NCBI GenBank assembly: GCA_017857235.1
Contig: JAFMDN010000011.1
Span: 1 to 36,031 of the forward strand
Direction: 5' to 3'
Source of the DNA: Methanobacteriota archaeon
GTDB lineage: Archaea > Thermoplasmatota > Thermoplasmata > Thermoplasmatales > GCA-001856825
Length of the DNA: 36,031 nucleotides
Shown here: one piece after another, positions 15,510 to 34,702 of the stretch
Layout: each line of letters starts with the position of its first letter
Numbering within the stretch: the first letter of the stretch is position 1
Notes under the pieces: model-generated
Database searches by the model: none
Seen by the model: the letters and a program-made list of their open reading frames with translations, nothing else
What the model was told of the DNA's origin: nothing
Translations under genes and position numbers: made by a program

Positions 15510-15521
15510 CCATTGAACCAA

Positions 15522-15589: not shown

Positions 15590-15994
15590 ATGTATTCTGA
15601 AATTACTAAGGATGAAATCAATGCCTTAGAATTAATAAAGAAGTTAGATTGTCAAGGTTGTGGATCCATAATTGAATTCCATGGGGTAGTTAGGCCAGAC
15701 GGTGAACTCGGAGAAATAATGGCCCTTTATTATGACTATCACGAAAGTATGGCACCAAAAATTTTAAATGAGGTATTATCCGAAGCAATTGGAAAATTTT
15801 CTTTAATAGATGGCGTGGTTATACACAGAGTTGGTTTAATTCCTGTGGGCGAGACATCCTTGTTTATTGCTTTATCCTCAAAGCACAGGAAGGAGGCGCT
15901 TTCTGGTATGGAATGGTTAATTGATGGAATAAAGACTAGAGTACCTATATGGAAAAAAGACGTCTATAAAAACGGATCATACTGGCATCAGTAG
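15590..15994 (+). CDS. moaE: Molybdopterin synthase catalytic subunit MoaE
   Basis: MoaE transfers sulfur from MoaD thiocarboxylate to precursor Z to make the dithiolene of molybdopterin. The 134 residues carry the family segments GSIIEFHGVVRP, ALYYDYHESMAPK, VIHRVGLIPVGETS and the C-terminal RVPIWKKDVY with the active-site lysines Lys115 and Lys122. Its partner moaD lies about 1.2 kb downstream in a separate transcription unit. A hairpin after the stop probably ends the transcript. Confidence 0.95.
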   Translation: MYSEITKDEINALELIKKLDCQGCGSIIEFHGVVRPDGELGEIMALYYDYHESMAPKILNEVLSEAIGKFSLIDGVVIHRVGLIPVGETSLFIALSSKHRKEALSGMEWLIDGIKTRVPIWKKDVYKNGSYWHQ

Positions 15995-16016
15995 GACTCA
16001 GAAATTGCGAATGGAA

Positions 16017-16039
16017 CATGAAAAATCCTAATTTTCATG
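16017..16039 (+). terminator. Stem-loop after moaE
   Basis: Eight-base arms CATGAAAA (16017-16024) and TTTTCATG (16032-16039) flank a seven-base loop, 22 bp after the moaE stop, followed by T-rich sequence. The position fits a transcription end or RNA 3' stabiliser. Confidence 0.45.
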
Positions 16040-16271
16040 AATTTTATAATGCTTCCATGTTGCGTTTCTTTAAAATTTAATGGATAGTTAATATCATTTC
16101 TCAACTTTTATAACGATTTATGATCATTCCTAAAAATTTTCTTTAATTGAAATCAAATTTATCTTAGTGAGTTAGCATATTATTTCCTTACTATTGACAT
16201 CCTTATCACCAAACCAAGCATCTTACCGAAGGTTGAAGTCTTAACATATATGCACTGGTCATAAGCTAATG

Positions 16272-16314
16272 GAATTATAAAAGCTTGAAATATTGAAATT
16301 ATATAGGTACAACA
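16272..16314 (+). promoter_or_regulatory. Promoter of the moaA-moaD-moeB-mobA operon
   Basis: ATTATAAAAG at 16274-16283 is a strong TATA-like element about 32-41 bases before the moaA ATG at 16315, predicting a short leader of about ten bases. No SD is obvious in front of moaA. Confidence 0.5.
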
Positions 16315-17214
16315 ATGATAAAAGATAATTTCGGTCGTCCTCTAAATAGTTTGAGAATCCAACTGAATGCCACCTGTAATTTTAAATGTTTTTTCTGCCA
16401 CATGGAGGGCACTGAGGAAAATACAAAAACTATGAGTCTGGAAGAAATTGAAAAGGTGATCAAGGCTGCATCTCAGTTGGGTGTAAAGAGAATAAAATTT
16501 ACAGGTGGCGAACCTTTACTTCGAAGGGATATTTTAGAAATTATAAAGGTTACAAGAAAATATATTGATGGCGATATTTCCTTAACAACAAATGGCTATT
16601 TCCTGGAAGGTATGGCTGTCAAGCTCAAAGAAGCCGGGCTTAATAGAGTAAATATATCTCTACATGCCATGACTCCAGAATCTTTTAAGACCATAACAGG
16701 TATAGGTTCTCTCAATATAGTGAAAGAAGGAGCTAAGGCAGCTGTAAGGGCTGGATTGAATCCGGTCAAGCTAAACATGGTTATTCTTAAGGGTATAAAT
16801 GACGGTCAAATTTTTCAATTGCTGGATTTTGCCCGAGAGATAGGAGCCATGGTCCAATTTATTGAATTAGAATCCCCAAGGGAAAAAGAAAAAGAAGAAT
16901 GGTTTAGAAGATTTCATGTAAGTCTGGATTTCATTGAAGATCTTTTGAAGCCTTATCTTAAAGGGATAGAATACAATCCCCTTCATAAGAGGAGAATTTT
17001 GATCCTTGATTATAATGGTTCTGAATTGAAGGTAGAAATTGTAAACCCGCATAGGAATCATGATTTCTGTATGAACTGCACTAGACTGAGGATAACCTCA
17101 ACTGGCAGTGTACAAACTTGCATTCATAGACCGGATCAGAGAATATCGATTGATTATAATAATACATCTGAATCTTTAATAGTAGCAACCAAGATGAGAG
17201 AACCGTACTGGTGA
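16315..17214 (+). CDS. moaA: GTP 3',8-cyclase MoaA
   Basis: This radical-SAM enzyme starts molybdopterin synthesis by rearranging GTP to 3',8-cyclo-GTP. The 299 residues contain the SAM cluster motif C-x3-C-x2-C at Cys21, Cys25 and Cys28, the SAM-binding FTGGEPLLRRD (62-72), and the second cluster at Cys252, Cys255 and Cys269. The protein ends REPYW rather than with the Gly-Gly tail of bacterial MoaA. It heads a four-gene operon. MoaC, which acts next, is not encoded in the window. Confidence 0.95.
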   Translation: MIKDNFGRPLNSLRIQLNATCNFKCFFCHMEGTEENTKTMSLEEIEKVIKAASQLGVKRIKFTGGEPLLRRDILEIIKVTRKYIDGDISLTTNGYFLEGMAVKLKEAGLNRVNISLHAMTPESFKTITGIGSLNIVKEGAKAAVRAGLNPVKLNMVILKGINDGQIFQLLDFAREIGAMVQFIELESPREKEKEEWFRRFHVSLDFIEDLLKPYLKGIEYNPLHKRRILILDYNGSELKVEIVNPHRNHDFCMNCTRLRITSTGSVQTCIHRPDQRISIDYNNTSESLIVATKMREPYW

Positions 17215-17218
17215 TAGC

Positions 17219-17458
17219 ATGAAAATCAGAGTAAAATTTTATGCCCGTTACGGAGATAAGTTTGGGAAAGAGCATTATATAGATATTGAGAGTTCGATGA
17301 GTGTAGAAAATTTCTTAAAACTGCTTTATAAGGTAATTCCGGGTTTACAAAATGAAAGGAATATTATACTGGCCATTAATGATTCTTTGGCTTCTGCTGA
17401 TTATATATTGAAAGATGGAGATAGTGTTTCAATATTTCCCCCTCCAGGAGGAGGATAA
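17219..17458 (+). CDS. moaD: Molybdopterin synthase sulfur carrier MoaD
   Basis: A 79-residue ubiquitin-like sulfur carrier. It begins MKIRVKFYARYGDKFGK and ends SIFPPPGGG; the terminal Gly-Gly is adenylated by the E1-like protein encoded next and then thiocarboxylated for use by MoaE. An SD-like GGTGAT (17210-17215) overlaps the moaA stop. The last glycine codons (GGAGGAGGA) also serve as the SD for the following gene, which starts one base after the moaD stop codon. Confidence 0.93.
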   Translation: MKIRVKFYARYGDKFGKEHYIDIESSMSVENFLKLLYKVIPGLQNERNIILAINDSLASADYILKDGDSVSIFPPPGGG

Positions 17459-18181
17459 ATGTTTGAAAGATATTTAACTCAGATAGCGTTTGCAAAATTA
17501 TTCCCTGATGGGCAGAGAAAATTGATGCAGACCACAGTAGGCATCGTTGGAGTCGGGGGGACTGGTAGCCATATTTCAGACCTTATTGTAAGGATGGGGT
17601 TCGGGAAAGTTAAAATTGTAGATCATGACACTGTTGAAATTTCCAATCTAAATAGGCAGTCTTTATATGACGAATATGATATTGGAAGACCCAAAGTATT
17701 AGCGGCCTATGAAAAATTAATTAAAATAAATAGAGAAGTAAAAATTATCCCAATAAATAAGAAAGTCACTGAGGAAAATGTTGATGAAATACTTGGAGAT
17801 GTTGACATTATTATGGACGGTACTGATTCTTTTGGTGCAAGAGGATTATTAAACAGATTTTCAATCGAGAGGGAAAAAATCTTCATATTTTCGGCGGTAG
17901 AAGGATCAGCAGGTATGGCGAAGGCCATTATCCCTAAAAAAACAGCATGCCTTGAATGTATAGGGTATCCGACATACGGAGATTCAGTCCCTTGTTCTGT
18001 CAACGGCCTGATCCCAAACGTAGTTGAAATGGCTGCAGCAATTTCCGTTACGTTAGCAGTGAAGAGTCTACTTGATTATGTTGAAGATGAAATCGTTGTA
18101 TTTGATTCATGGGACCTATCATTGGAAAAGGTAAAAACTAAAATCAATCCTTCCTGTAAAATTTGTGGGCATAGAAAATGA
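17459..18181 (+). CDS. moeB: MoeB/ThiF-type sulfur-carrier adenylyltransferase
   Basis: An E1-like enzyme that activates the C terminus of MoaD with ATP. The 240 residues hold the nucleotide site GVGGTGSH (31-38), Asp55, the NLNRQ loop (63-67) and Lys79. Two CxxC pairs (CLEC and the C-terminal CKIC) make the structural zinc site. No rhodanese domain is attached, so the sulfur donor comes from elsewhere. Placement directly after moaD indicates a role in molybdopterin synthesis, though archaeal members often also serve other small carrier proteins. It overlaps mobA by ATGA. Confidence 0.92.
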   Translation: MFERYLTQIAFAKLFPDGQRKLMQTTVGIVGVGGTGSHISDLIVRMGFGKVKIVDHDTVEISNLNRQSLYDEYDIGRPKVLAAYEKLIKINREVKIIPINKKVTEENVDEILGDVDIIMDGTDSFGARGLLNRFSIEREKIFIFSAVEGSAGMAKAIIPKKTACLECIGYPTYGDSVPCSVNGLIPNVVEMAAAISVTLAVKSLLDYVEDEIVVFDSWDLSLEKVKTKINPSCKICGHRK

Positions 18182-18723
18182 TTGCCGTGATATTTGCCAA
18201 AGTTAGCCAGAGACTTCCAAACAAGCATATGCTTAATATTTGTGGAAAACCCTTAATTCTTAGAGTTTATGAGACTGCTTTGAACAGCGGACTATTCAAT
18301 GATGTAATAATTTATTCGAAAAACCCCAATCTAAATGTTAATGCTAATATTGTTTTTGATAATTCATCGGGAGTACTCATTGACGCTGTTGAGAGTGCAA
18401 TAAAGCTATTCGGCACTATATTTGCTCTTGGTGGAGATATGCCTTACTTAGATTCCGAAATCCTATCAAAAATTTATGAAAATTATGAAAATGATACTGT
18501 ATACGGACTCAACAATGATGGCATCCCTGAGCCTTTACTTGCCATTTATAATGGAGGATCAGATAAATGCATCGAAAAATTCAAACAAAGTTCAAAGTCA
18601 GTTTCTAAATATTTAAAAAATTATGGAAAAGCTATTCCATTAAAAGAAGAGTCTTGGAAAGTTAAAAGCATTAACGTTTTTGATGATTATGAGCAAGCTT
18701 TGAAAATTCTTGGATGTTATTAA
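18178..18723 (+). CDS. mobA: MobA-like nucleotidyltransferase (cofactor guanylyltransferase)
   Basis: A 181-residue single-domain nucleotidyltransferase. It has the metal-binding FALGGDMPYL (83-92), close to the MobA pattern, and GKPLILRVYE (23-32) after the N-terminal loop. The usual LAGGxSxRMGxxK loop is replaced by IFAKVSQRLPNKH (5-17), closer in look to CMP-sugar synthetase loops. Operon position strongly suggests it attaches GMP or CMP to the pterin cofactor for the formate dehydrogenase encoded next. The start overlaps the moeB stop as ATGA. Confidence 0.8.
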   Translation: MIAVIFAKVSQRLPNKHMLNICGKPLILRVYETALNSGLFNDVIIYSKNPNLNVNANIVFDNSSGVLIDAVESAIKLFGTIFALGGDMPYLDSEILSKIYENYENDTVYGLNNDGIPEPLLAIYNGGSDKCIEKFKQSSKSVSKYLKNYGKAIPLKEESWKVKSINVFDDYEQALKILGCY

Positions 18724-18735
18724 TGATTCGCAAGT

Positions 18736-18777
18736 AACTGTAAAAATCTTATCTAATTGTATCTGATTTACTATTAG
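18736..18777 (+). promoter_or_regulatory. Promoter region of the formate dehydrogenase operon
   Basis: An A/T run at about 18740-18751 (TAAAAATCTTAT) lies 27-38 bases before the fdhA ATG, as expected for a TATA element with a very short or absent leader. No SD is seen before 18778. Read-through from mobA, 54 bp upstream, is also possible. Confidence 0.4.
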
Positions 18778-20790
18778 ATGGCTCAAATTAGTGTGTGTCC
18801 ATACTGTGGAACCGGATGCCAAATTGTAGTGCCTGAGAAGGATGAGCCATTTTCTGTTTCAGGGTACAAAGGCTCCCCCGTTAACAATGGAAAGTTGTGT
18901 ATAAAGGGTTATACTGGTCTGAACTATAGTTTTTCTAAAGAAAGATTGACATACCCTCTTTTTAATGAAAACGGAAATTTCATTAGGATTTCGTGGGAAG
19001 ATGCCATAGAATTAGCTGCAAATAAATTGTTGAAAATCAGGGAAGAATTCGGACCGGATTCAGTGGCATTTCAATCTTCGGCTAAATGTACTAACGAAGA
19101 GAATTATTTGATGCAGAAAATGGCAAGGGTATTTGGTACTAATAATATAGATCATTGTGCAAGAAGCTGCCATAGTCCTACCGCATTAGGTTTAATTAAT
19201 ACATTGGGAACCGGTGCTGCAACTGGATCTATTAAAAGCCTAGAGGGTACCAATACCTTTTTCATTATAGGCTCCAATACAACGGAACAGCATCCTATAA
19301 TAGGCTCCAAAATAATTAGCGAAGTCAAGAAAGGGAAGAAACTAATTGTTGCAGACCCTAGGAAGATTAAGTTAGCCGAATTGGCAGATATTCATATGCA
19401 ATTTAGACCCGGTACTGACGTTGCCCTCCTTAATAGTTTGATGTTTGTCATAGTAAAAGAAAAACTTTATGACAAGGAGTTCATAGATAGTCGCACAGAA
19501 GGATTCAATGAGTTAAGGGAGGAGGTTATCAAATACGATCCCATTATCACGTCCGAAATTACCGGTGTTGAGCCAGAATTAGTTTATGAGGCTGCCAGAA
19601 CTTATGCTACTAACAGACCTTCAGCCATATTTTATGCGATGGGTATCACTCAGCATATTCATGGAACCGAAAATGTGATGAACGTTTCCAATTTAGCCTT
19701 AATTACAGGCAACTTAGGGAAATATGGATCAGGAATATTTCCATTAAGGGGGCAAAATAATGTCCAAGGAAGTAGCGATATGGGTGCACTGGCAGAATTT
19801 TATCCTGGCTATATTAGATGGGATTCAGACAAAATCGAGAAGTTTGCAAAACTCTGGAATTCAACTCTCCCAAAGAAAAAGGGACTTACTTTATCCGAAA
19901 TGTTTGACAAGGCGGCAGATGGCGAAATTAAAGCAATTTATCTCATGGGGGAAAATCCATTAATCACTGAAGCAAATATTGCGAGAGTAGAAGAAGGAAT
20001 CGACAATCTCGAATTTTTCATAGTTCAGGATATTTTCATGACGCTAACAGCCGCTAAAGCAGATCTTGTGCTTCCGGCGGCGTCTTCACTTGAAAAGGAG
20101 GGTACATTCACCAATACTGAGAGGCGTATTCAGAGGATATTCCCCATTTATAAGCCTCCAGGGGAAGCTAAGCCTGACTGGTGGATAATAAATAAAATAG
20201 GAAGCAGAATGAATTTATGGAAAGAGTATAGCGGACCTGAAGAAATTTTCAATGAGATCAGGGAGGCAATTTATAATTACTCCGGGGCAACATATGAAAA
20301 TATTTATCCCGTGGGAAAACAATGGCCAATTAATAAAGAAAATCCTGACGGAACTGAAATACTTCATACAAGATCATTCCCGCTTGGTAAGGGTAAGCTA
20401 GTTCCTATAAAATTCAATCCACCAAGCGAATCTGTGGACGGTGAGTATGATTTGATAATGACTACTGGTAGAAATTATTTCCATTGGCATTCCGGTACAA
20501 TGACCCGTCTTTCTCAGATATTGGAGAGGGAAGCTCCTGAACCATACATAGAAATCAATTCAGAAGATGCTTATGAGAGAAAAATAAGAAATGGTCAGTT
20601 GGTTAATGTAAAATCAAGGCATGGGGAGATCAGGATTAGAGCGAAGGTAACAAACCTCGTACCAAAAGGGATTGTTTTCATCCCGTTCCATTATAAAGAA
20701 TCAAGAGTGAACCTCCTTGTTGGCGAAAATCTTGATCCGATTTCAAAAATTCCAGAGTTTAAAGTTGTTGCAGTGAAGGTGATGCCATGA
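18778..20790 (+). CDS. fdhA: Formate dehydrogenase catalytic subunit, cysteine type
   Basis: A Mo/W-bis-pterin oxidoreductase that oxidises formate to CO2. The 670 residues begin with a 4Fe-4S site at Cys7, Cys10, Cys14 and Cys41, followed by the electron-relay lysine Lys43. The metal ligand is Cys130 next to His131 (CARSCHSPTALG); no selenocysteine is used. NNVQGSSDMG, the EKEGTFTNTERR segment and the C-terminal pterin domain (GRNYFHWHSGTMTR, RHGEIRIRAKV) match formate dehydrogenases. There is no Tat signal and no membrane anchor, so the enzyme is cytoplasmic. It overlaps the next gene by ATGA. Confidence 0.93.
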   Translation: MAQISVCPYCGTGCQIVVPEKDEPFSVSGYKGSPVNNGKLCIKGYTGLNYSFSKERLTYPLFNENGNFIRISWEDAIELAANKLLKIREEFGPDSVAFQSSAKCTNEENYLMQKMARVFGTNNIDHCARSCHSPTALGLINTLGTGAATGSIKSLEGTNTFFIIGSNTTEQHPIIGSKIISEVKKGKKLIVADPRKIKLAELADIHMQFRPGTDVALLNSLMFVIVKEKLYDKEFIDSRTEGFNELREEVIKYDPIITSEITGVEPELVYEAARTYATNRPSAIFYAMGITQHIHGTENVMNVSNLALITGNLGKYGSGIFPLRGQNNVQGSSDMGALAEFYPGYIRWDSDKIEKFAKLWNSTLPKKKGLTLSEMFDKAADGEIKAIYLMGENPLITEANIARVEEGIDNLEFFIVQDIFMTLTAAKADLVLPAASSLEKEGTFTNTERRIQRIFPIYKPPGEAKPDWWIINKIGSRMNLWKEYSGPEEIFNEIREAIYNYSGATYENIYPVGKQWPINKENPDGTEILHTRSFPLGKGKLVPIKFNPPSESVDGEYDLIMTTGRNYFHWHSGTMTRLSQILEREAPEPYIEINSEDAYERKIRNGQLVNVKSRHGEIRIRAKVTNLVPKGIVFIPFHYKESRVNLLVGENLDPISKIPEFKVVAVKVMP

Positions 20791-21716
20791 TATATTCACT
20801 AAATGCTGAAGAAATGGCCCAACTATATGAAAGAATCAGCAAAGAGTTCGAGACCTATGGTACCGTGGATATACAGGGTGACATAACATTCTCCAGAATT
20901 GAAAGTTATGATGAATTAAGAATTGGCAGATCTGATAAACCACCCAAAGAATTCCTAATAGGTAGAAATGAAAACGTCCTTGTTTTTACAGAGCCTAATA
21001 AAAAAGCAGTGTTTGGGGTTATGAGTTGTGATCTCAAGGGATTCTATATAATGGATAAACAGATTTACGGAAAAGATCCTTTTTACACTGCCAGAAGGGA
21101 TAACACAGTTTTCATAAATTACGTCTGTACTGAACCTTGCGAGACAGGTTTCTGTTCAAGCTTTGGTGGCCCTCTTCTGAATGATTACCAGATACAGGTA
21201 ATTAATTATGAAAATGACAAGTATTTAATCTATGCTGATGATGCCTATAAATCATTTTTTGAGGGTTTTAAACAAGCATCGAAAGAGGAAATTTCAAAGG
21301 TGGAGAAATTAATGCATAATTTTAATATGAAACAGAAAAAACATGAAGTAGAGGGTATCGAAAATAGAATAAAATGGAATTCTAAACTCTGGGACGAATA
21401 TGCTAAAATATGCATACAGTGTGGAGCTTGCAATTACTCCTGCCCCACTTGCTATTGCTTCGATTTAAATGATGTGGGAGAAGAGAGATTCAGAGAATGG
21501 GATTCATGCATTCTGGCTGGTTTTACGAAAACATCTGCGGGTAATCCAAGAGAATCTCTTGCATCAAGATTAAGGCAGCGTTTCTATCATAAATTCGTTT
21601 ATTACAAAAAATCCAAAGGAGAGTACTTATGTACAGGATGCAATAGATGTACTGATGATTGCCCTGTAGATATTGAAATTAAAGAGGTGATAGATCATGA
21701 CTACAATAATGAATAG
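20787..21716 (+). CDS. Iron-sulfur electron-transfer subunit, HydB/AsrA-like
   Basis: A 309-residue protein with two C-terminal 4Fe-4S sites: Cys209, Cys212, Cys215, Cys219 and Cys282, Cys285, Cys288, Cys292. Extra cysteines (Cys222, Cys224, and Cys114, Cys118, Cys123 in CTEPCETGFC) suggest further cluster or metal binding. The layout matches the beta subunit of archaeal sulfhydrogenases and anaerobic sulfite reductase subunit A. Between fdhA and a flavoprotein gene it most likely carries electrons from the formate site to FAD. Its ATG overlaps the fdhA stop. Confidence 0.85.
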   Translation: MIYSLNAEEMAQLYERISKEFETYGTVDIQGDITFSRIESYDELRIGRSDKPPKEFLIGRNENVLVFTEPNKKAVFGVMSCDLKGFYIMDKQIYGKDPFYTARRDNTVFINYVCTEPCETGFCSSFGGPLLNDYQIQVINYENDKYLIYADDAYKSFFEGFKQASKEEISKVEKLMHNFNMKQKKHEVEGIENRIKWNSKLWDEYAKICIQCGACNYSCPTCYCFDLNDVGEERFREWDSCILAGFTKTSAGNPRESLASRLRQRFYHKFVYYKKSKGEYLCTGCNRCTDDCPVDIEIKEVIDHDYNNE

Positions 21717-22473
21717 CTTTAAACCACATGAAAAGAGGATAGCGAGGAAAATAAAAGAAACCACAGATATTTTTACTATAGAAATTGATATGGAATCCAA
21801 TTCTTATCCAGGGCAATTTTATGAGCTCTCAATACTTGGAATTGGAGAAGCGCCCATTTCTGCAGCTTCCAGTAGTTCAGAAAAACTGAAATTCACCATT
21901 AGAAGTATAGGCCATGTTACTTCCAAAATATTTGAACAGGATGTCATAGGAGTGAGGGGACCTTATGGAAACTATTGGCCATTCAAAGAATATGACAGAA
22001 TCTTGGCAATAGCAGGAGGAATTGGGATTCCACCAATAAGGGCTCTTATTCATGAATTAGAGGGTAAAAAGGATTTATGGGTCATCTATGGAGCTAGGAC
22101 TCCTTCCGACCTTGTCTATAAATATGAATTTGATCAATGGAGAAACAAGGCTAACCTCATATTAACAGTGGACAGAGGAGATGAAAGTTGGAATGGAAAA
22201 GTAGGACTTGTTACCAAATACATTCCTGAAATACCGGATTTAAAAAACATGGCTGCCTTTCTTATTGGACCACCAATAATGATGGAAAATTCTGTTAAGG
22301 ACCTTTTGAAATATGGCTTGCAACCTGAAAATATATTTCTTAGCCTGGAGAGAAGAATGGAGTGTGGGTTTGGAGTTTGTGGACATTGCAATGTTGGCCA
22401 CTTTTATGTCTGCGAAGACGGACCAATATTCAGGTATTCTGAAGTTAGTAATCTTCCAGAGTTGTTTTTGTAA
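21697..22473 (+). CDS. FAD/NAD(P)-binding, 2Fe-2S electron-transfer subunit, HydG/AsrB-like
   Basis: A 258-residue ferredoxin-reductase-type protein: a beta-barrel FAD domain (about 10-98, GPYGNYWP), an NAD(P) domain (AGGIGIPPIRAL at 106-117, YGART at 131-135) and a C-terminal 2Fe-2S site formed by Cys223, Cys228, Cys231 and Cys239. This is the pattern of sulfhydrogenase gamma subunits, AsrB and PyrK. With its two partners it should make a soluble formate:NAD(P)+ oxidoreductase (inference from order and domains). The ATG at 21697 has the SD GAGGTGAT (21685-21692) and lies 20 bp inside the upstream gene. Confidence 0.87.
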   Translation: MTTIMNSFKPHEKRIARKIKETTDIFTIEIDMESNSYPGQFYELSILGIGEAPISAASSSSEKLKFTIRSIGHVTSKIFEQDVIGVRGPYGNYWPFKEYDRILAIAGGIGIPPIRALIHELEGKKDLWVIYGARTPSDLVYKYEFDQWRNKANLILTVDRGDESWNGKVGLVTKYIPEIPDLKNMAAFLIGPPIMMENSVKDLLKYGLQPENIFLSLERRMECGFGVCGHCNVGHFYVCEDGPIFRYSEVSNLPELFL

Positions 22474-22519
22474 ATTCTAACCCCCATGAATTTTTCTTAT
22501 TTCAATAATTTTGAAGGCA

Positions 22520-24370
22520 TTATGCTATTCCCAATTCCCTAAGTACTTCAGGCTTTGGACTTCCATTTTCATCTAATCCAATCTCATCAAGATACTCCTT
22601 TACCATTGTTTTATAATCTACAGTTATTCCAGCTGTCGGGCCAGCCTTTAGTGGCGGTTTTCCAATTACTCTATCAGGTAGGTCGACCTTCATTGGGTTT
22701 ATACCGCATTTATAATTGAAGTAATGTCTGCTTATTTGTATTCTTCTACCTATTTCCATAAGCTCTTCCGGTGTGACTTCCCATCCCATGATAGCTTTTA
22801 AAAGCTTAGCATATGGATAAGAATTAGGCCAGACAGAAGTTGAAAACATGCACATCCCTGTTGAGTTTATAATCTGCATACCATATGTTGAAAGGGCTTG
22901 TAGTTTGCCCTTACCCTCATACTTGTATCTCTCAATTTTATTTCTTTCCACAGGATATTCAAATGGAAGAGTTATATAGCCTCCTTCATCAAATCCAATT
23001 CCTCCGGCCGTATGTCTGCCTGGAGTTGGATCTGCTGCATAAGTAGTGGCAAGAGATGGCATAAGCCTTGGATCATGCATAGGTAATTCCTGACCATGCG
23101 CATGCATAGCAGCCTCGTAACATTTACCTCCCAGTATCTCGGAGGCCTTCTTTACCCCCTGCCCCAATATCTTGCCTATTCCCTCCCCGTCAATTATCAT
23201 CTGTAAAAGTCTGATCATTGAATCCGGTTTACCGAACCCTATTTCAAATCCTATTTGTTCCTTGGTAATATAACCCTTTTCGTAGCATTCGTTAGCAAAC
23301 GCAATCACAGCACCAGCACTAATAATATCCAGACCTTCGCGGTTGCACATTTCGAAGGCCATCGCCATGGCATCTAGATCTGAAATCAAATTTAAACCTC
23401 CAAATGATCCTGTTCCTTCATACTCCAGTCTATGACCTTTAATTTCGCCATACTTGGTATGCCTTGATATTGTACCACCGCAAGCTAGAACACATTGTGC
23501 ACAGCCATATGATCTTATTTTATCCTTTGCAATGTTCTCTCCGCTTATTTTTCGAGCATTTTCCTCACCAAAATCGATTAAGCCGACACCTGCCCAATTC
23601 TTGATTGGAGTGTCCCCATTCAAATGGGATGACTCGGTTATCATTGTTGTTCCGTACAGCTGCCATGGCCTCACTGATTCTATATTTCTGTGAAACATCG
23701 CCTGTATTTCTTTTAAAGTTTGCCTTAGAAGATCCATATCATAAACTTCGAGTTTCTTTGTACCTCTAACTAATATCCCCTTTACTTTTTTTGATCCCAT
23801 TACTGCACCTAGTCCAGACCTGCCAGCAGCTCTCCCGTAATCATTCATTATGCCAGTAATTAAAGATAGATTTTCAGCTGGTCTCCCTATAACCAGCGCC
23901 TGTCCCTTTGGTTCCAATCTTCTAAGATAATCCTCAGCCTCATAAGCGCTTTTACCCCATATTTCGGAAGCGTCTTCCAAGCTATAATTTCCGTCCTTGA
24001 TTTTTATATATACGGGCTTATCAGAAATTCCTTTTATGAAAATACCATCAAAACCACTATTCTTTAATTCTGGACCAAATTTCCCGCCACAGTTTGCATC
24101 TCCCCATGTTCCAGTAAGGGGTGATTTCCCAACGACTTCAAATCTGCCTCCCAATGGAACCCCATTAGAATTGAAAATACCTGTAATTATTCCCAAAATG
24201 TTATCAGGCCCAAGAGGATCCTCATCTCCTTTCATTTCTCTATTTAGGATGTAAGAACCTAAACCATTTCCAGTTAAGTATTTTCTATAAATTTCTTCTG
24301 GTATTTCTTCCTCCCACATTTCTTTTTTAGTTAGATCAACCCAAAGGATTTTTCCGTTTACACCATACAT
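22520..24370 (-). CDS. aor: Tungsten-dependent aldehyde:ferredoxin oxidoreductase
   Basis: A 616-residue AOR-family enzyme, normal in length, that oxidises aldehydes to carboxylic acids with a W-bis-pterin and a 4Fe-4S cluster. Cluster ligands are Cys290, Cys293, Cys297 and Cys507. The N-terminal domain carries VNGKILWVDLT, GVPLGGRFEVVGKSPLTGTW and GDANCGGKFGPELK, and the pterin-binding part has HAHGQELPMHDPRL (423-436) followed by TPGRHTAGG. It is cytoplasmic and should pass electrons to ferredoxin. The aldehyde specificity is unknown. It converges with the formate dehydrogenase operon and diverges from the tungstate importer about 0.8 kb away. Confidence 0.94.
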   Translation of the reverse strand: MYGVNGKILWVDLTKKEMWEEEIPEEIYRKYLTGNGLGSYILNREMKGDEDPLGPDNILGIITGIFNSNGVPLGGRFEVVGKSPLTGTWGDANCGGKFGPELKNSGFDGIFIKGISDKPVYIKIKDGNYSLEDASEIWGKSAYEAEDYLRRLEPKGQALVIGRPAENLSLITGIMNDYGRAAGRSGLGAVMGSKKVKGILVRGTKKLEVYDMDLLRQTLKEIQAMFHRNIESVRPWQLYGTTMITESSHLNGDTPIKNWAGVGLIDFGEENARKISGENIAKDKIRSYGCAQCVLACGGTISRHTKYGEIKGHRLEYEGTGSFGGLNLISDLDAMAMAFEMCNREGLDIISAGAVIAFANECYEKGYITKEQIGFEIGFGKPDSMIRLLQMIIDGEGIGKILGQGVKKASEILGGKCYEAAMHAHGQELPMHDPRLMPSLATTYAADPTPGRHTAGGIGFDEGGYITLPFEYPVERNKIERYKYEGKGKLQALSTYGMQIINSTGMCMFSTSVWPNSYPYAKLLKAIMGWEVTPEELMEIGRRIQISRHYFNYKCGINPMKVDLPDRVIGKPPLKAGPTAGITVDYKTMVKEYLDEIGLDENGSPKPEVLRELGIA

Positions 24371-24456
24371 AATTATGATAAGAAATATTCGTTCATATTC
24401 TTTTCTAAAAGTTAAGCCTAAATTTATTAATGAGTTAGGTTAAATGGATGCAATTA

Positions 24457-24723
24457 ATGTTTGTTTATTTTTCACATAGAATTGATGACTACAAAGACCT
24501 CATAAATGCATTTACTTGCTTAGACTAAAATGGGAACAAATATTCAATAGACGATAAGAAAAACTGGAATCTTGAAAAATTGTTCATAATAAAGGCTGGT
24601 ATTAAACCTGACAATGATATACTCGCTTAGATGCTTCTTGAAGCTAAAATACCGGTTGGATCAAAAGAAGGTAAAATAAACCCTCTTCAAAAATTAATTA
24701 AAGAACATTATGAAGCTAGATGA
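24457..24723 (+). pseudogene. Decayed 89-codon reading frame with two in-frame stops
   Basis: Reading from the ATG at 24457 gives a protein-like sequence to a TGA at 24721, broken only by TAA at 24526-24528 and TAG at 24628-24630. The peptide pieces are hydrophilic and well composed (for example SHRIDDYKDLINAF, DDKKNWNLEKLFIIKAG, EAKIPVGSKEGKINPLQKLI). Both stops differ from Glu codons by one change (GAA to TAA, GAG to TAG), and Glu would fit each context. The family is not recognised. A recent pseudogene is the simplest reading; translational read-through is less likely because two different stops are involved. Confidence 0.5.
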
Positions 24724-25164
24724 TAGTAAGGAGGGGATTCCCACTAGAAAAATTAGAATTAGATCTGGATTTCAATTCTAACTAATTTTTATTCATGCAA
24801 CCGGCAACTATTGGGAATAAATCTATTTTATCTTAATTTGATAATTGAGTGGTTAGCATGGAAATAAACTTAATGTTAATTACATTTTTTGGAATTATAA
24901 CATTTATTATTAAAGAATTATTGCTTAATAGCTTTTCCTTGAATCTTTAATAATGATTATTTTTTATCCTCTTTAATATCTCCAAAAGCTTGAAAATTTA
25001 TACTTTAAGATCTAAGTATTCTTACTCAATACTTGGGGAATTTCTAAAAGTTGCATAATTAATTGTTCTTTCCATTTTTCAGATAATGAATGCATTTATA
25101 CTTATTCAACTGTTGCCCTAAGAAACTTTGGAAACTTATTAATCTTTGAGATACATTTTTTACT
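24724..25164 (+). other. Gene-poor region upstream of wtpA
   Basis: This is 441 bp of very AT-rich DNA. It begins with an inverted repeat, TTAGAATT at 24753-24760 and AATTCTAA at 24774-24781, whose flanks extend the pairing with a small bulge; it could be a transcription end of the decayed frame or a regulator site. A 30-codon frame at 24858-24950 encodes a single hydrophobic helix (MEINLMLITFFGIITFIIKE) with no clear SD; it may be a miniprotein, but chance is likely in such AT-rich DNA. A promoter for wtpA must lie toward the right end. No RNA gene was recognised. Confidence 0.45.
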
Positions 25165-26331
25165 GTGAGGACTTCCTTAGCTATTATCGCCCTAGTGATC
25201 ATATTTATCGCAGGAATTGCTATTGGGCTTTATATAACTCCTAGAGAATCTAAAACTGTAATTATAACAGGTTTTGCCGCAGGCTCTTTAAAATATGCCA
25301 TAGGTGATAATTTTATTCCTGAATTCTCCAACTTAACCGGCATAAAGATTGGCATGAGCTTCGGTGGTTCTGTTTCTGGCGCAAGACAAATTCAATCAGG
25401 ACAACCCTATGACATCTTTATATCCGCAGCAGCTGGAGTTATCCCATCCTTGTTGATGCCAAACTACACCGATTGGATGATAATTTTTGCTACAAACGAA
25501 ATGGCCGTGACTTGGATCAACCAATCATACAATATACAGCCGGGGGCCTTCTGGTTCGAAAATATATCTGCAAAAGGTATAATAGTAGCAGCATCAAATG
25601 CATCTCTTGATCCTAGCGGATTCCAAGCAATAGAAATGATAAAATTAGCTGGAATTTATTATACAAACTGGTCTAATCCTTACGTTAGAATGGCTTGGCA
25701 CAATAATTTCCATGAGTTTATGATATACAACAGTGCATGGAACTCATGGTTCGGCCCAAATGGTACCTTGGCATCAGAACATTATGGAGGAGGTTATCCC
25801 ATAAATGATTCTATGGCACTTTACGATCAACTCTTCCAGTACAAATTGAAAGTGGGAGACTTAAAATTGACAACAGTTGAGATTGGATTAGACGGGTATT
25901 TGCAATCAGGTGCTGCTGACTATGCCTTAACATACAAATCTCAGGCTATAAACCAACATCTAAATTACTTTAAAAATACAAATGGATCTAACGGCTTGAG
26001 TTCATGGATAAACTTGGGCTCAATTCAGAGAAATCAAGTGATGTTCTATCAGGAAGTTAATTCAACTGGTCCATCCATAGATAATATAGGAGATTATCCA
26101 GGAGGTCCAATTCTTTATGGTGCAACTATATTATCAAAAACAAAGTACCTCAACAATGATGAAGCTTTTATATACTTCCTTGTAACACCTCTTGGTCAAC
26201 AGATATTAAATAACAGTGATTTTGATCCAATCTCAGTTCCATTCATATATGGGCAAGCTCCCCCGTTGATTTCACAGCTAGGGCAGCCTATTCCAGCTTA
26301 CATACCTACAAACTCTTATGAAGAAATATGA
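25165..26331 (+). CDS. wtpA: Tungstate/molybdate ABC transporter substrate-binding protein
   Basis: A 388-residue extracellular binding protein of the WtpA/ModA group. An N-terminal hydrophobic helix (about 4-23) acts as signal or anchor; there is no lipobox cysteine. Landmarks are ITGFAAGSLKYA, SGQPYDIFISAA, LLMPNYTDWMIIFATNEMAV, the stretch around SLDPSGFQAIEM, and the late GDYPGGPILYGATIL. WtpA-type proteins bind tungstate and molybdate tightly, and the cofactor genes around it support that substrate. The start is GTG at 25165. It overlaps the permease gene by ATGA. Confidence 0.9.
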   Translation: MRTSLAIIALVIIFIAGIAIGLYITPRESKTVIITGFAAGSLKYAIGDNFIPEFSNLTGIKIGMSFGGSVSGARQIQSGQPYDIFISAAAGVIPSLLMPNYTDWMIIFATNEMAVTWINQSYNIQPGAFWFENISAKGIIVAASNASLDPSGFQAIEMIKLAGIYYTNWSNPYVRMAWHNNFHEFMIYNSAWNSWFGPNGTLASEHYGGGYPINDSMALYDQLFQYKLKVGDLKLTTVEIGLDGYLQSGAADYALTYKSQAINQHLNYFKNTNGSNGLSSWINLGSIQRNQVMFYQEVNSTGPSIDNIGDYPGGPILYGATILSKTKYLNNDEAFIYFLVTPLGQQILNNSDFDPISVPFIYGQAPPLISQLGQPIPAYIPTNSYEEI

Positions 26332-27128
26332 AATTTGACAAACTTTACTACATTTTTTCCATATTTGTCATAATTTACCTTGGAATCATTGTCGTACCCA
26401 TACTGAGAACACTGCTATTTACAAGCATAAACGGGCTTGTTCAAGATTCCAAATCAGGGATCATTCAATCTATTGAACTTACTTATTTAATGGCATTTAT
26501 AGTAGCCATTATTAGTGTGGTTTTCGCCATTCCTTATACATATTTTATTTCAAGAAGCCCCCACCCATTCTTCAAATTTGTTGATTCCATTATAGAATTG
26601 CCTATAATGATTCCTCATACAGTTGTTGGAATTATTATGCTTCTTACATTTGAACCTAGCATGCCTTTAGGTTCACTTATTTCAAAAATATATCCCAATT
26701 ACAGATTTGATGATACTTTTTTCGCAGTTATTGTTACCCTATTCTTCTTAGCTTCGGCTTATTCCATAAGAACAATTCAGGTTTCTTACACAAAAAATGC
26801 TATTGAATATGAAAATATGGCTAGAAGCTTTGGATATAAACCATTGGAGGCTTTTATGCTGGTATCTGTCCCGTTTATGTGGCGCTCCATTCTTAGGGGA
26901 ATGGCACTAACATGGGCTAGGTCCATATCGGAGGTTGGCTCAATGCTTATAGTTGCTTATTATATCTTTCCCAGTTTCACCCATTTGGTGGGTATCTTTA
27001 TTTATTCGCAATTTATAGGAAACGGCCTAATTCCAGCGGCTGAGTCTTCGTCTATCCTAATAATCACTGGCCTCTTGACCTTACTTATTTTAAAGATATT
27101 GGAGGGAAAAGATGCTTCATATTACTGA
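26328..27128 (+). CDS. wtpB: Tungstate/molybdate ABC transporter permease
   Basis: A 266-residue inner-membrane permease with about six helices. It carries the binding-protein-dependent permease motif around NMARSFGYKPLEAFMLVSVP, which docks on the ATPase, and the ModB-like IIELPIMIPHTVVGIIMLL and WARSISEVGSMLIVAYY. It sits between the binding protein (ATGA overlap) and the ATPase (17-bp overlap), so the three subunits are translated together. Confidence 0.92.
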   Translation: MKFDKLYYIFSIFVIIYLGIIVVPILRTLLFTSINGLVQDSKSGIIQSIELTYLMAFIVAIISVVFAIPYTYFISRSPHPFFKFVDSIIELPIMIPHTVVGIIMLLTFEPSMPLGSLISKIYPNYRFDDTFFAVIVTLFFLASAYSIRTIQVSYTKNAIEYENMARSFGYKPLEAFMLVSVPFMWRSILRGMALTWARSISEVGSMLIVAYYIFPSFTHLVGIFIYSQFIGNGLIPAAESSSILIITGLLTLLILKILEGKDASYY

Positions 27129-27978
27129 TCTTAGAGTTATTCGGGGGAAATTCAAGCTTCAAATCGATGACTTAAATTTATCTGGTAGAAGTATACTTTT
27201 AATAGGCGAAAATGGCTCCGGAAAAACTACCCTTCTCCAATCCATTGCTGGCTTCATACAGTCGAGTGGTAAAATTTACCTTGAAGATTTTGAAATTAAT
27301 TCTTTGCCCATTGAGAAAAGAAATGTTTGCATGCTATCCACGACATTAAATATCTTTAAAGATAAAACAGTAAAAGAAAATTTAAACTTCCCCAAAAGGA
27401 AAAGGGATGGTGTTTATGATGATCTTATAAATGATCTATGCCTTGCAGAAAAAGAAAACGTCAAAGGTGCCTATCTTTCCTCAGGTGAGATGCAAAGATT
27501 GGCCATAGGCAGATGTCTGATATCTGAATCAAGGTTAATGTTATTTGATGAGCCGTTTTCATTTCAGGACCAAATAAATAAGATGCTTATGAGAGATATC
27601 ATTGAAAAGTATTCGGTTAAATTCAATGTACCATATGTTATAACCACAAATATATATGGAGAATTTCTGTACAATTTTCATAACATCGTTTCCATATGGA
27701 AAGGAATGATTTTAGAAAATGTGAATTCATTGGACAATATTTCTCACTTCAGAACCGCATCTTTGATCTCTCCGTTGAATTTATTAAAAATTAAAGACGA
27801 ATATTACATTGTAGACCCTAACGAAATAGTATTCGGAGATTCAGGGTATGATTATGAGGCAATTTCAAACAACATCCTTAGGATAAAAATAGATGGAAAT
27901 TTTTTCTACTTAAAAACCAGCGCACCTCCAAATGGAAACAAATTAAATTTTGGAAAAATAAGGAAGCTTCAATATTGA
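27112..27978 (+). CDS. wtpC: Tungstate/molybdate ABC transporter ATPase, with atypical Q- and H-loops
   Basis: A 288-residue ABC ATPase energising the importer. The Walker A motif GENGSGKTT (32-40), signature YLSSGEMQRL (121-130) and Walker B LMLFDEP (142-148) are intact. Two switch residues are not: where ModC/WtpC have the Q-loop Gln the sequence is MLSTT (Thr77), and the switch His is Asn180 (ITTNIYGE). The C-terminal part (about 210-288) may be a reduced TOBE-like regulatory domain. The SD GGAGGG (27101-27106) precedes the ATG inside wtpB. The gene has no frameshift, so altered motifs rather than decay are indicated. Confidence 0.87.
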   Translation: MLHITDLRVIRGKFKLQIDDLNLSGRSILLIGENGSGKTTLLQSIAGFIQSSGKIYLEDFEINSLPIEKRNVCMLSTTLNIFKDKTVKENLNFPKRKRDGVYDDLINDLCLAEKENVKGAYLSSGEMQRLAIGRCLISESRLMLFDEPFSFQDQINKMLMRDIIEKYSVKFNVPYVITTNIYGEFLYNFHNIVSIWKGMILENVNSLDNISHFRTASLISPLNLLKIKDEYYIVDPNEIVFGDSGYDYEAISNNILRIKIDGNFFYLKTSAPPNGNKLNFGKIRKLQY

Positions 27979-28003
27979 AATATGGAAATTTCATTATTAT
28001 GGT

Positions 28004-29197
28004 ATGATAAGGGATTATATTTCCCTCGATGAAGCCCTAAAGATCGGGAAGGAAGCGAAGTATGAACTTGATATGGAAGATAGAATATTCGAAATAAATA
28101 CTCAATATGCGGTAGGAAAGTTGTCCGCAGAAGAAGTTCTATCACCAAAAGATTATCCGGCCGAAAATAAAAGTGCAGTAGATGGGTATGCATTAAATTC
28201 AAAATATATCTTGTCAGCCTCCAGTTCTAATCCAATTTCTTTAAAAATAATAGGGAAGTCTGAGCCTGATAATCCTTTTGATGGAGTATTAAGGGATGAT
28301 GAAACCGTAAGGATTTTGACAGGTGCAAAGTTACCTCAAGGAGCAGATTCTATTTTGATGGATGAAGATGCAATCGTTGAAGGAGAATATTTAAAGGTAA
28401 ACAAAAATTTGAGACCATTTCAGAATGTCAGCTTCATCGGTGAAGATATAAAAAAGGGAGAAAGAATAATCTCCAGAGGGGAAATCATAAGTCCTGCGAA
28501 ACTTGTTGCACTTTTAGAAACAGGAATTAGAAATATTAAGATCCTTGATCTTAAGATAGGGATACTATCCACGGGGAATGAACTTTTATCAGGTAAGGTT
28601 AAGAACACTACTCAATATTTACTTATTGAAACCCTAAAGAAATACGGTTACAATCCTATTAATCTAGGTATAGCAGCGGATGATTATGAGGATTTAATTT
28701 CAAAATTGTCAAAAGAAAAGACTGATGTATTGATTTTAACCGGCGGAACAGGTCCCAGTGAAAATGACCTGACTAGTGAATTTGTGAAATCAACTGGAAA
28801 AATTCTTTTCCATGGAATAAAGATGCGACCCGGTAGAACAACCGGCTTGGGAATTATTGATGGAACTCCAGTTTTTATCATTTCAGGTTTACCAGTAGCT
28901 TCCCTTATGGCCTTGGAAAATGTTATAGATCCGCTTATAAGATACTGGTTTAATTTAGAACCTATAAGAGATCAATTTGTTAAAGCTAAATTAAACCGTG
29001 CAGTAGTTAATACCTTGGGATTTAGATCGTTTGTGAGGGTGAAATTAAATGAAAACTATGAGGCTGAACCTCTAAAAGTAACCGGTTCAGGGGTAATATC
29101 TTCTATTATCAATGCTGACGGAATATTAATTGTCCCAGAAAACGTTGAGGGTTATTCCGAAGGTGAAGAAGTAAATATTAAGCTCCTGAGGTGCTAA
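28004..29197 (+). CDS. moeA: Molybdopterin molybdenumtransferase MoeA
   Basis: MoeA inserts molybdate or tungstate into adenylylated molybdopterin. The 397 residues show SAVDGYALNS in the N-terminal domain, LTGAKLPQGADSILMDED, GILSTGNELL and LTGGTGPSENDLT in the MoaB-like domain, and the active-site loop IKMRPGRTTGLGIIDGTPVF followed by a C-terminal beta domain. It starts 25 bp after wtpC and ends one base before a second moeA, so it belongs to the importer operon. Archaea often have two MoeA paralogues, perhaps one each for Mo and W. Confidence 0.94.
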   Translation: MIRDYISLDEALKIGKEAKYELDMEDRIFEINTQYAVGKLSAEEVLSPKDYPAENKSAVDGYALNSKYILSASSSNPISLKIIGKSEPDNPFDGVLRDDETVRILTGAKLPQGADSILMDEDAIVEGEYLKVNKNLRPFQNVSFIGEDIKKGERIISRGEIISPAKLVALLETGIRNIKILDLKIGILSTGNELLSGKVKNTTQYLLIETLKKYGYNPINLGIAADDYEDLISKLSKEKTDVLILTGGTGPSENDLTSEFVKSTGKILFHGIKMRPGRTTGLGIIDGTPVFIISGLPVASLMALENVIDPLIRYWFNLEPIRDQFVKAKLNRAVVNTLGFRSFVRVKLNENYEAEPLKVTGSGVISSIINADGILIVPENVEGYSEGEEVNIKLLRC

Positions 29198-29198
29198 G

Positions 29199-31091
29199 AT
29201 GGTTAAAATTTTCCATAAACTCGTTTCCATTGAAGAAGCTAAAAAAATCCTAACCGATTCCTTCCAAAAATTAATTTCTGCTGAGGTTGTTGATATAACT
29301 GATTCCGTTGGACTGATAAGTTCTGAGGATGTTTATTCAACGCTTGACAACCCTCCTTTTGATAGATCTGAAGTTGATGGGTATGCTTTAGATCATAGGT
29401 CTATTTTGAACGCCGATGACTATAACCCAATAAAATTGAAAATAGTTGGTACGATAGAGGCTGGAAGCAAATATTTAGGAAAAATCCAAGATTTGAATGA
29501 GTGCATCTACGTAGCTACGGGAGCACCTATACCGAGAGGGTCGGATTCAGTTGTTATGGTAGAGTATACAAAAAGGGAAGGAGAATTTGTTTATGTATAT
29601 AGGCCAACAGCTCCAGGAGAAAATATTGCCCATGCTGGAAGTGATTTCACTGTAGAAGAAATCATTTTAAGGAAAGGAGAAAAAATTTCAGCTGAAAAGA
29701 TTGCAGTTTTGAGCGCTTCGGGAATTGGGAAAGTTTCGGTTTTATCAAAACTAAGAATTGGTATCCTATCCACAGGGAATGAAATTATTAGACCTGAAAA
29801 TGAAATTGAATTCGGACAAATATATGATGTAAATGGACCCTATGTCAAGACTCTTTTGGATTCATATAAATTGATCCAATCAGATTACTTGGGCATAATA
29901 AGAGATAGTTATGAATCCATAAGGGATTCATTGGAATCTTATTTAAAGAAATATAAAATTATAATCACATCTGGTGCTACTTCTGCTGGCTTTCATGACC
30001 TTTTGTACTCAGTTTTAGATGATATTGGAGCAACCCCAATTTATCATGGAATCGCAATAAAGCCAGGTAAGCCTTCATTCCTTTACTCGATTAATGGTAA
30101 TCTAGTAATTGGTCTGCCTGGCTTTCCATTGTCTGCTGCTTCGGTACTATATACAGTAATAATTCCATCAATCTTATCTGCTTATAATGTGGAAATAGGA
30201 AAACCTCAAAGCGTTAGATTGGGATTGAAAATAACTCCTGAAAGGGGGAAAGAACTTATATTACCTGGAATTCTAAGCAGAAATGGATATGTTTATCCCA
30301 TATTTGGTGAGTCCGGAAGTATTAGTAGGATCTCTCAGGCTGATGGATTTTTGATTGTTTCTGGAGATAGAATATTCTATAATAAAGGGGATCAGGTCAA
30401 TTTCTATAAAATGGCTGAACACGAGAAGGATTTAATCGCCATAGGTAGCAATGATCCAATATTAGAAAGGATCATTTTATTAACGACAAATAAGGCAATT
30501 ATAGTGAATGCAGGCTCTATGGGCGCTATAGAAGCAATGATTAATGGATATTCGGATTTAGGAGGTTTACACCTTTATAAAGATGGACAATACAATACCT
30601 TCGTAATGGATGATAAACTAAAAATGAAAGCCTCTATCATAAGAGGCTTTGATAGGATTCAAGGTTTTATTTCTAGAGATGGTTACAAATCCTTTAGAGA
30701 AATTATGGAAAGGAAAGCAATATTTGTCAATAGAAACAGAGGCTCCGGAACCAGAGCTATCATTGATGAATTGATAGAATCAGAATTTGGTAAAAATTTC
30801 GATAAATCAGCAATATACAATTATTTTTGGGAGGCTAAAAGTCATGCCGCTGTTGCCAGATCAGTATTGCAAGGTAGAGCAGATGTTGGTATAAGCATAA
30901 AATTTTATGCCGACTTATTCAATTTAAAATTCCATGAGGTAAAGAAGGAGAGCTATGATATCATCGTTTCCAGAGATTTCTTGGACAGTGCAGTAGGGAA
31001 AAAATTTATTGATAATTTAAAATCTTTGAAACAAACTAATCCACCGTCCGGTTATATATTCCCTGAGAATATTGGCGAAATAATTTCTTAA
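29199..31091 (+). CDS. moeA2: MoeA fused to a periplasmic-binding-type (LysR-substrate-like) domain
   Basis: A 630-residue two-part protein. Residues 1 to about 405 are a full MoeA (RSEVDGYALDHRS, GAPIPRGSDSVVMVEYT, GILSTGNEIIR, TSGATSAGFHDLLYS, IKPGKPSFLYSINGNLVIG). Residues from about 410 to 630 form a binding-protein-like domain (NAGSMGAIEAMINGYSDLGG, NRNRGSGTRAIIDELIE, VARSVLQGRADVGI) that is cytoplasmic here and may sense or hold the metal oxyanion. The fusion is known in archaea. Its start follows moeA by one base. The paralogue next door suggests division of labour between Mo and W. Confidence 0.92.
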   Translation: MVKIFHKLVSIEEAKKILTDSFQKLISAEVVDITDSVGLISSEDVYSTLDNPPFDRSEVDGYALDHRSILNADDYNPIKLKIVGTIEAGSKYLGKIQDLNECIYVATGAPIPRGSDSVVMVEYTKREGEFVYVYRPTAPGENIAHAGSDFTVEEIILRKGEKISAEKIAVLSASGIGKVSVLSKLRIGILSTGNEIIRPENEIEFGQIYDVNGPYVKTLLDSYKLIQSDYLGIIRDSYESIRDSLESYLKKYKIIITSGATSAGFHDLLYSVLDDIGATPIYHGIAIKPGKPSFLYSINGNLVIGLPGFPLSAASVLYTVIIPSILSAYNVEIGKPQSVRLGLKITPERGKELILPGILSRNGYVYPIFGESGSISRISQADGFLIVSGDRIFYNKGDQVNFYKMAEHEKDLIAIGSNDPILERIILLTTNKAIIVNAGSMGAIEAMINGYSDLGGLHLYKDGQYNTFVMDDKLKMKASIIRGFDRIQGFISRDGYKSFREIMERKAIFVNRNRGSGTRAIIDELIESEFGKNFDKSAIYNYFWEAKSHAAVARSVLQGRADVGISIKFYADLFNLKFHEVKKESYDIIVSRDFLDSAVGKKFIDNLKSLKQTNPPSGYIFPENIGEIIS

Positions 31092-31096
31092 TCTCC

Positions 31097-31582
31097 CTAC
31101 TCTTTATGGAGTTCGTGATAAATATGGTATATGAATTTTTTAATTATTTCAACGCCCTTCTTTACAGCACCAGGTGATCCTGGAAGACAGTATATCTGAG
31201 TCCTACCAACTAAGAATAGGGAAGCATTTGAGAAATATGCAATTTCCTCATTAGAGGATTGCCTAAACAGCTCCCCAAACCCCTTTATTTCCTTCTCGGC
31301 GATTTTTGAAACTGCAGAAATTGTTACATCCCTTATAGAAGGACCGGTTCCTCCTGTTATAATTATTACATCCTTTTCAATATTGCATAATGTTTCCCTT
31401 AATATTTTAATCTGTTCATCTGGACAAAGTGATCTAGATGTTTCATGTTCCAAACTCATAAAATTTTCTATCAATTTTCCCGACTCGTCATTTTCTAATG
31501 TCCTCGAACTTGATACTGTTAATATGTGCACTTTAAGCCTCTTTTTTTCACCCATATTGTGTAATGAAATTTCTTTTTCCAT
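31097..31582 (-). CDS. moaB: Molybdopterin adenylyltransferase-type protein MoaB/Mog
   Basis: A 161-residue MoaB/MogA-family protein, which adenylates molybdopterin before metal insertion by MoeA. TVSSSRTLENDESGKLI near the N terminus, IITGGTGPSIRDVT in the middle and YCLPGSPGAVKKG near the end are the family marks. The ATG at 31582 is preferred; an in-frame TTG at 31597 would add five residues. A TATA-like run on the minus strand at about 31606-31618 is suitably placed. It converges on moeA2 with 5 bp between stops. Confidence 0.92.
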   Translation of the reverse strand: MEKEISLHNMGEKKRLKVHILTVSSSRTLENDESGKLIENFMSLEHETSRSLCPDEQIKILRETLCNIEKDVIIITGGTGPSIRDVTISAVSKIAEKEIKGFGELFRQSSNEEIAYFSNASLFLVGRTQIYCLPGSPGAVKKGVEIIKKFIYHIYHELHKE

Positions 31583-31675
31583 GGTAAATAGATGCAATAT
31601 GAGAATAAATCTATTTAGAATATTAGCTATTAATGTCTAATAAAGACTCTCATCCTTTTCAAAAAATGTGTTGAT

Positions 31676-34690: not shown

Positions 34691-34702
34691 GACAGTAAAC
34701 CC

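Follow-up and report, generated by a model that had tools for sequence, protein, structure and literature searches.

The stretch of archaeal DNA analysed here (the window, 36,031 bases, which is the complete contig C49 of its assembly) carries a cluster of molybdenum/tungsten (Mo/W) genes running from moaE to moaB. We consider it very probable that this cluster is a family-conserved Mo/W block from a Thermoplasmatales archaeon related to I-plasma, in which metal import, cofactor assembly and use of the cofactor in two enzymes are brought together. The cluster is real, conserved and functionally coherent, and it is of an already described kind. Gene content and order were observed directly, as profile scans of the window's open reading frames placed 15 Mo/W genes at 15590-31597 with no unrelated intact gene between them, 13 on the plus strand and only the aldehyde ferredoxin oxidoreductase (AFOR) gene and moaB on the minus strand. 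An earlier reading of this DNA from its letters alone (the sequence-only reading) had described the genes from moaE to moaB as contiguous with one decayed frame among them, and all were recovered at the limits it gave. The assembly (G000) measures 1.28 Mb in 58 contigs, of which the cluster makes up 1.25%; it is 89.5% complete, and a single absence there carries little weight. The labels below derive from Pfam and NCBIfam profile scans judged against their cut-offs, together with matches to solved structures.

15590-15994, plus: moaE, molybdopterin synthase large subunit (PF02391, E 3.8e-26, 91.9 bits against a cut-off of 23.4)
16315-17214, plus: moaA, GTP 3',8-cyclase of the archaeal type (TIGR02668, 340 bits against 325; NF001199, 346 against 231)
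17219-17458, plus: moaD, sulfur carrier with the C-terminal end PPPGGG in its translation (PF02597, E 2.7e-12)
17459-18181, plus: moeB/thiF-type adenylyltransferase for MoaD (PF00899, E 1.5e-58; MoeB and ThiF are not separable by NCBIfam scores)
18178-18723, plus: mobA-like nucleotidyltransferase, divergent (top NCBIfam match MobA, E 1.5e-13)
18778-20790, plus: fdhA, formate dehydrogenase alpha subunit, Cys type (TIGR01591, 820.6 bits against a cut-off of 666)
20787-21716, plus: fdhB, iron-sulfur subunit, sulfhydrogenase beta/AsrA-like (9nez beta, E 4.2e-19; TIGR02910 under cut-off)
21697-22473, plus: fdhC, flavin adenine dinucleotide/NAD(P) subunit, sulfhydrogenase gamma/AsrB-like (9nez gamma, E 1.1e-41; PF00175, PF10418)
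22520-24370, minus: AFOR1, tungsten aldehyde oxidoreductase (PF01314 and PF02730; aldehyde oxidoreductase 1aor, E 1.8e-91)
24478-24720, plus: remnant of a second AFOR gene, C-terminal part with two stop codons (PF01314 positions 287-367, E 5.1e-8)
25165-26331, plus: wtpA-type tungstate/molybdate binding protein (nearest solved chains PH0151 and PF0080)
26328-27128, plus: wtpB-like permease (NF040839, E 1.6e-41, under cut-off)
27112-27978, plus: wtpC-like ATPase (PF00005, E 2.4e-23; top NCBIfam match WtpC, under cut-off)
28004-29197, plus: moeA1, metal insertase (PF03453, PF00994, PF03454)
29199-31091, plus: moeA2 with a C-terminal PBP-like domain (NF011068, 565 bits against a cut-off of 534; PF12727)
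31097-31597, minus: moaB, molybdopterin adenylyltransferase (PF00994, E 3.5e-21; TIGR02667, E 3.9e-27, under cut-off)

For comparison we used 41 genomes in families f1 to f6, where f1 is the window's own Thermoplasmatales family with 15 genomes, among them the window's genome and a sister species of the same genus (G001). The core order of the cluster is conserved across f1 and looser outside it, and the grouping is therefore not incidental. The half that holds the formate dehydrogenase (FDH) and AFOR genes is joined to the half with the wtp and moe genes in 10 of 13 evaluable f1 genomes (G000, G001, G005-G011 and G013), and AFOR1 adjoins fdhC in all 13. Two f1 genomes were left out of the join count, G012 with its contig ends and the half-complete G014, which has no FDH, AFOR or MoeA match. 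The moaE-moaA-moaD-moeB block is joined to the FDH half in G000, G001, G002 and G004, lies about 10 kb off in G003 and occupies a separate contig in G005. Among the genomes examined, a single block of all these genes was found only in the window's genus, which also moved moaC out of it. A second fdhC-like gene of about 30% identity stands a few kilobases from cluster genes in many f1 genomes (L015, L017, L018, L021, L022, L024, L026 and L030).

Profile searches of the window's genome returned a single PF00384 match and a single intact AFOR, each of them inside the window, and no match to PF02738 (xanthine oxidase) or PF00174 (sulfite oxidase). The search for further Mo/W enzymes that the sequence-only reading had proposed thus located none outside the window in this 89.5% complete assembly, and its claim that supply, assembly and use of the cofactor lie together was borne out, none of the four large families of Mo/W enzymes having a further member there. 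Elsewhere in f1 the repertoire is wider: a PF02738 enzyme occurs in 9 of the 11 genomes of genus g3, and up to two additional AFOR genes are present at other sites in several genomes of the family. AFOR1 itself is 70-94% identical to seven aligned f1 orthologues, has AFOR_N and AFOR_C domains above cut-off, and finds its nearest solved chain in 1aor.

The way in which the cluster may work is suggested by the families named above, as are the individual reactions, the identity of the metal and the acceptor of the electrons. WtpABC would import tungstate or molybdate. MoaA from the window and MoaC from another contig of the same genome (C42) would yield cyclic pyranopterin monophosphate, which MoaD, MoaE and MoeB would convert to molybdopterin; MoaB would then adenylate molybdopterin, and the two MoeA proteins would insert the metal. 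The bis-molybdopterin form would serve the aldehyde oxidoreductase, while the MobA-like enzyme would add a nucleotide to the cofactor destined for FdhA. Electrons from FdhA would pass through the sulfhydrogenase-like FdhB and FdhC to nicotinamide adenine dinucleotide or its phosphate, NAD(P), an acceptor proposed because FdhB and FdhC have relatives in the beta and gamma electron-transfer subunits of sulfhydrogenase 1 (9nez); in the window this pair goes with an FDH and not with a hydrogenase. Since a near-complete set of genes for import, assembly and use is contained in one 16 kb stretch plus moaC, the scheme could be tested in a laboratory host.

Clusters of this kind have been reported before. 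In I-plasma and others, FDH genes were found inside molybdopterin synthesis clusters (Yelton et al. 2011, PMC3197636), and two AsrA/AsrB-like genes of I-plasma were tied by synteny to the adjacent FDH (Yelton et al. 2013, PMC3750248). I-plasma belongs to the same family as the window and resembles it in having its FDH in a molybdopterin cluster with AsrA/AsrB-like partners beside it; gene order from the mobA-like gene to moaB at the I-plasma locus (L073/L014) matches that of the window. Unlike the window, I-plasma keeps moaC inside the cluster and carries moaE-moaA-moaD-moeB at another location. The word 'aldehyde' does not occur in the accessible main text of the 2011 paper, nor do 'aldehyde ferredoxin', 'aldehyde oxidoreductase' or 'fdhd' in that of the 2013 paper. 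Iyer, Burroughs and Aravind (2006, PMC1779556) described neighbourhoods of aldehyde oxidoreductase with moaD, moeB, moaA and moaE and, in the portion of that paper available, proposed them for a tungsten cofactor. The window shares this association and adds the FDH, WtpABC, two moeA genes and moaB, and its AFOR gene is read from the other strand and does not adjoin moaD. Pyrococcus furiosus likewise has a WtpA with Asp/Glu ligands, two MoeA paralogues, MoaB and enzymes of the aldehyde oxidoreductase family (PMC10221389, available in part), whereas the window has these genes side by side and linked to an FDH. The available part of a 2026 classification of tungsten-containing oxidoreductases gave no match for 'thermoplasma'.

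According to the accessible text of PMC10221389, the ligands of P. furiosus WtpA are Asp160 and Glu218, and Asp160 decides tungstate selectivity. Asp149 and Glu239 of the window's WtpA align with these two residues (PF0080 alignment; offset 28, counted by hand), and all 14 aligned sequences have both. This makes tungsten uptake likely in spite of the low profile scores.

Certain findings weigh against a block that works throughout as proposed. The FDH/AFOR and wtp/moe halves lie apart in 3 of the 13 evaluable f1 genomes (G002-G004), and linkage is thus not required for function. The NCBIfam cut-offs were missed by WtpA (121.6 bits against 355), WtpB (142.6 against 340) and WtpC (88.2 against 440), so these genes are filed as Wtp-like. 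The protein of 18178-18723 is filed, with a weaker label, as MobA-like. MobA proteins bear a glycine-rich nucleotide loop at the N-terminus, and the canonical loop is missing from this protein, which has FAKVSQRLPNKH where it would stand. The loop that is present resembles that of KdsB-type cytidylyltransferases, which also match there, and FxKxSxRLxxKH is kept in all eight aligned family copies. Its MobA score is 50.7 bits against a cut-off of 164, a cut-off that none of 14 control genomes passes either, and its top solved-structure matches are two MobAs. MobA was backed by modelling in the accessible text of Yelton et al. (2011, PMC3197636). Lastly, no FdhD, the sulfurtransferase that supplies sulfur to the cofactor of an FDH, was detected in any of the 15 family genomes; activity of the FDH is therefore not certain, and the source of the sulfido ligand of FdhA without FdhD stays outside the explanation offered here.

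The absence of FdhD (PF02634) from f1 was observed though 13 of the 15 genomes have a PF00384 match, and the same search was positive in 8 of 14 control genomes. FdhD is also absent from all f2-f5 genomes searched, complete f4 genomes included; among the 41 genomes it occurs only in eight of f6, in each of them within 1 kb of a different FDH of about 1000 codons. In a class-wide sample of 111 genomes, FdhD was found in 27 of the 39 with an FdhA-like match (E up to 1e-100) and in 7 of the 72 without one. Given this strong link between FdhD and FdhA in the class, its absence from the family looks like a lineage trait. The 12 genomes with an FdhA-like match and no FdhD include G000, G016, G017 and G021 as well as two of f6. 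No gene shared among loci emerged as a conserved neighbour of fdhA that might substitute for FdhD (18 neighbour frames at L014 and L017 of f1, L032 of f4, L042 of f3 and L081 of f6).

The missing FdhD would be accounted for if the supposed formate dehydrogenase were some other enzyme of the dimethyl sulfoxide reductase family, a reading favoured by the co-occurrence of FdhD with FdhA-like genes in the class. We regard this as unlikely. The fdhA product is predicted to be a metal-dependent formate dehydrogenase by its profile and its active-site motifs: the TIGR01591 score is well above cut-off, the nearest solved chains are formate dehydrogenases, and the motifs DHCARSCHSPT and PLRGQNNVQG contain the Cys, His and Arg that are kept in every f1 copy reaching them. 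We take the active-site Cys/Sec, His and Arg to be the catalytic residues of FdhA. Halobacteria, too, often have FDH genes without fdhD, and how the cofactor is sulfurated there is asked as a question in the available text of a review in which FdhD is described as almost, though not quite, universal (PMC10609526); FdhD was for this reason not counted as defining for an FDH. The same review gives FdhD as required for E. coli FdhF, and in Methylorubrum FdhD is required for the activity of both the tungsten and the molybdenum FDH, with MobB also needed for the former (PMC13197769, available in part).

Keeping to formate dehydrogenase as the function of FdhA, we tentatively suggest that the family may mature an active Cys-type enzyme without FdhD, by another sulfur route or with a cofactor needing none, and with the atypical MobA-like enzyme perhaps attaching a non-guanine nucleotide. 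If this is true, the conserved genes running from the mobA-like gene to moaC would come near to the smallest set able to mature the enzyme without FdhD. The family-wide absence of FdhD in any case provides a second archaeal setting, beside the halobacteria, for the question of where the sulfido ligand of FDH comes from. No treatment of FdhD in Thermoplasmatales was found in the literature, in a search that left most subscription journals outside.

Beyond f1 the arrangement changes. In f2, f3 and genus g13 of f6, fdhA-fdhB-fdhC are together with no AFOR in the stretch examined (7 of 7 genomes). In the single f4 genome that was scanned, the FDH sits in another kind of arrangement, which is complex I-like, and in three f4 genomes the AFOR near the FDH is of the other type. 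Mo/W genes are otherwise scattered outside f1, for example over single contigs of G017 and G033. The genes flanking the cluster differ between f1 genera, an observation that would suit a cluster moving as a mobile metabolic island, and the available text of Iyer et al. (2006, PMC1779556) suggests that moaD clusters linked to aldehyde oxidoreductase may be mobile. Such mobility is, however, improbable here, as the joined block was found in one family only, no tRNA was found in the window, and a Pfam scan of 39 window frames showed no recombinase. The window also gave no Rfam match.

A chance neighbourhood within one assembly is still less probable. It could draw on the scattering in G017 and G033 and on the location of moaEAD-moeB at another site in G005, but the same order recurs in many f1 genomes from separate assemblies despite third codon positions that, even in the closest pair of species, agree at only about half of the sites. 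The sequence-only reading had proposed a gene-order comparison and held that genes scattered in relatives, with most Mo/W enzymes elsewhere, would mark the grouping as incidental; the comparison revealed scattering outside f1 and a conserved core order within it, and most Mo/W enzymes of the window's genome do not lie elsewhere. Local gene exchange between G000 and G001, whose AFOR and WtpA proteins are 94% identical, was rejected, as third-position identity in these two genes (0.54 and 0.57) is within the 0.49-0.58 of the other cluster genes.

The sequence-only reading had correctly given moaC as absent from the window, and no remnant of it was found beside moaB between 31590 and 32760. The whole-genome search that it had proposed uncovered an intact moaC on contig C42 (G000:C42:9436-9861, 141 codons, 208 bits against a cut-off of 171). 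With this gene the pathway set MoaA, MoaC, MoaD, MoaE, MoeB, MoaB/MogA and MoeA is complete in the genome. Of the two possibilities raised earlier, a gene elsewhere therefore stands and an unusual replacement does not. A PF01967 search detected moaC in 37 of the 41 genomes, including the window's own (match C42:9445-9861), and in 8 of the 9 f6 genomes. Among the 13 f1 genomes with a match, 11 have moaC next to moaB. The exceptions, G000 and G001, share a displaced site beside a lysyl-tRNA synthetase-like gene, named by eye from its translation, the end of which overlaps the C42 moaC by 4 bases. From this distribution, the displacement of moaC is a change within one genus and not a missing pathway step. 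Within the few kilobases examined, the moaB-moaC pair likewise persists in 10 of 10 f4 genomes and 6 of 6 examined from f6, but it was found in none of five f3 genomes and not in the single f5 genome examined.

An assembly effect is an unlikely cause of the missing moaC, as the sister species shares the displaced site, which is well inside a contig in both. A foreign origin is not supported either: in a MoaC tree the C42 copy joins every other f1 sequence and two from f6 in one clade (support 0.918), the inner order of which is unresolved. There is next to no chance that an unusual enzyme has taken over the MoaC step, which the lack of moaC and of any remnant in the window might suggest, when the intact C42 gene scores above its curated cut-off, has a counterpart at the matching place in the sister species and groups with the family's other MoaC proteins.

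One of two neighbouring aldehyde oxidoreductase genes seems to have been lost from the genome, since the remnant at 24478-24720 matches an intact second enzyme of the sister species (AFOR2, L013:8471-10264, minus strand; 51% identity over 87 codons) at the same place. AFOR2 of G001 has about 600 residues and is situated, like the remnant, between AFOR1 and wtpA. That the decayed frame might be a recoded gene was rejected, as little of the gene is left and an intact copy survives in the sister species.

Beside the cluster, a sugar-transporter frame of 209 codons at 14892-15521 on the minus strand covers less than half of its domain, and a full-length relative of 476 codons adjoins fdhABC in G033 (L081:5588-7018). 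Near the same fdhABC genes, L081:7048-7455 on the minus strand is a short frame with a Cas12f1-like TNB domain. Towards the other end of the window, a short frame at 34481-34765 on the minus strand has a partial match to a pyridine nucleotide-disulphide oxidoreductase dimerisation domain and may be what is left of a gene close to the end of the contig.

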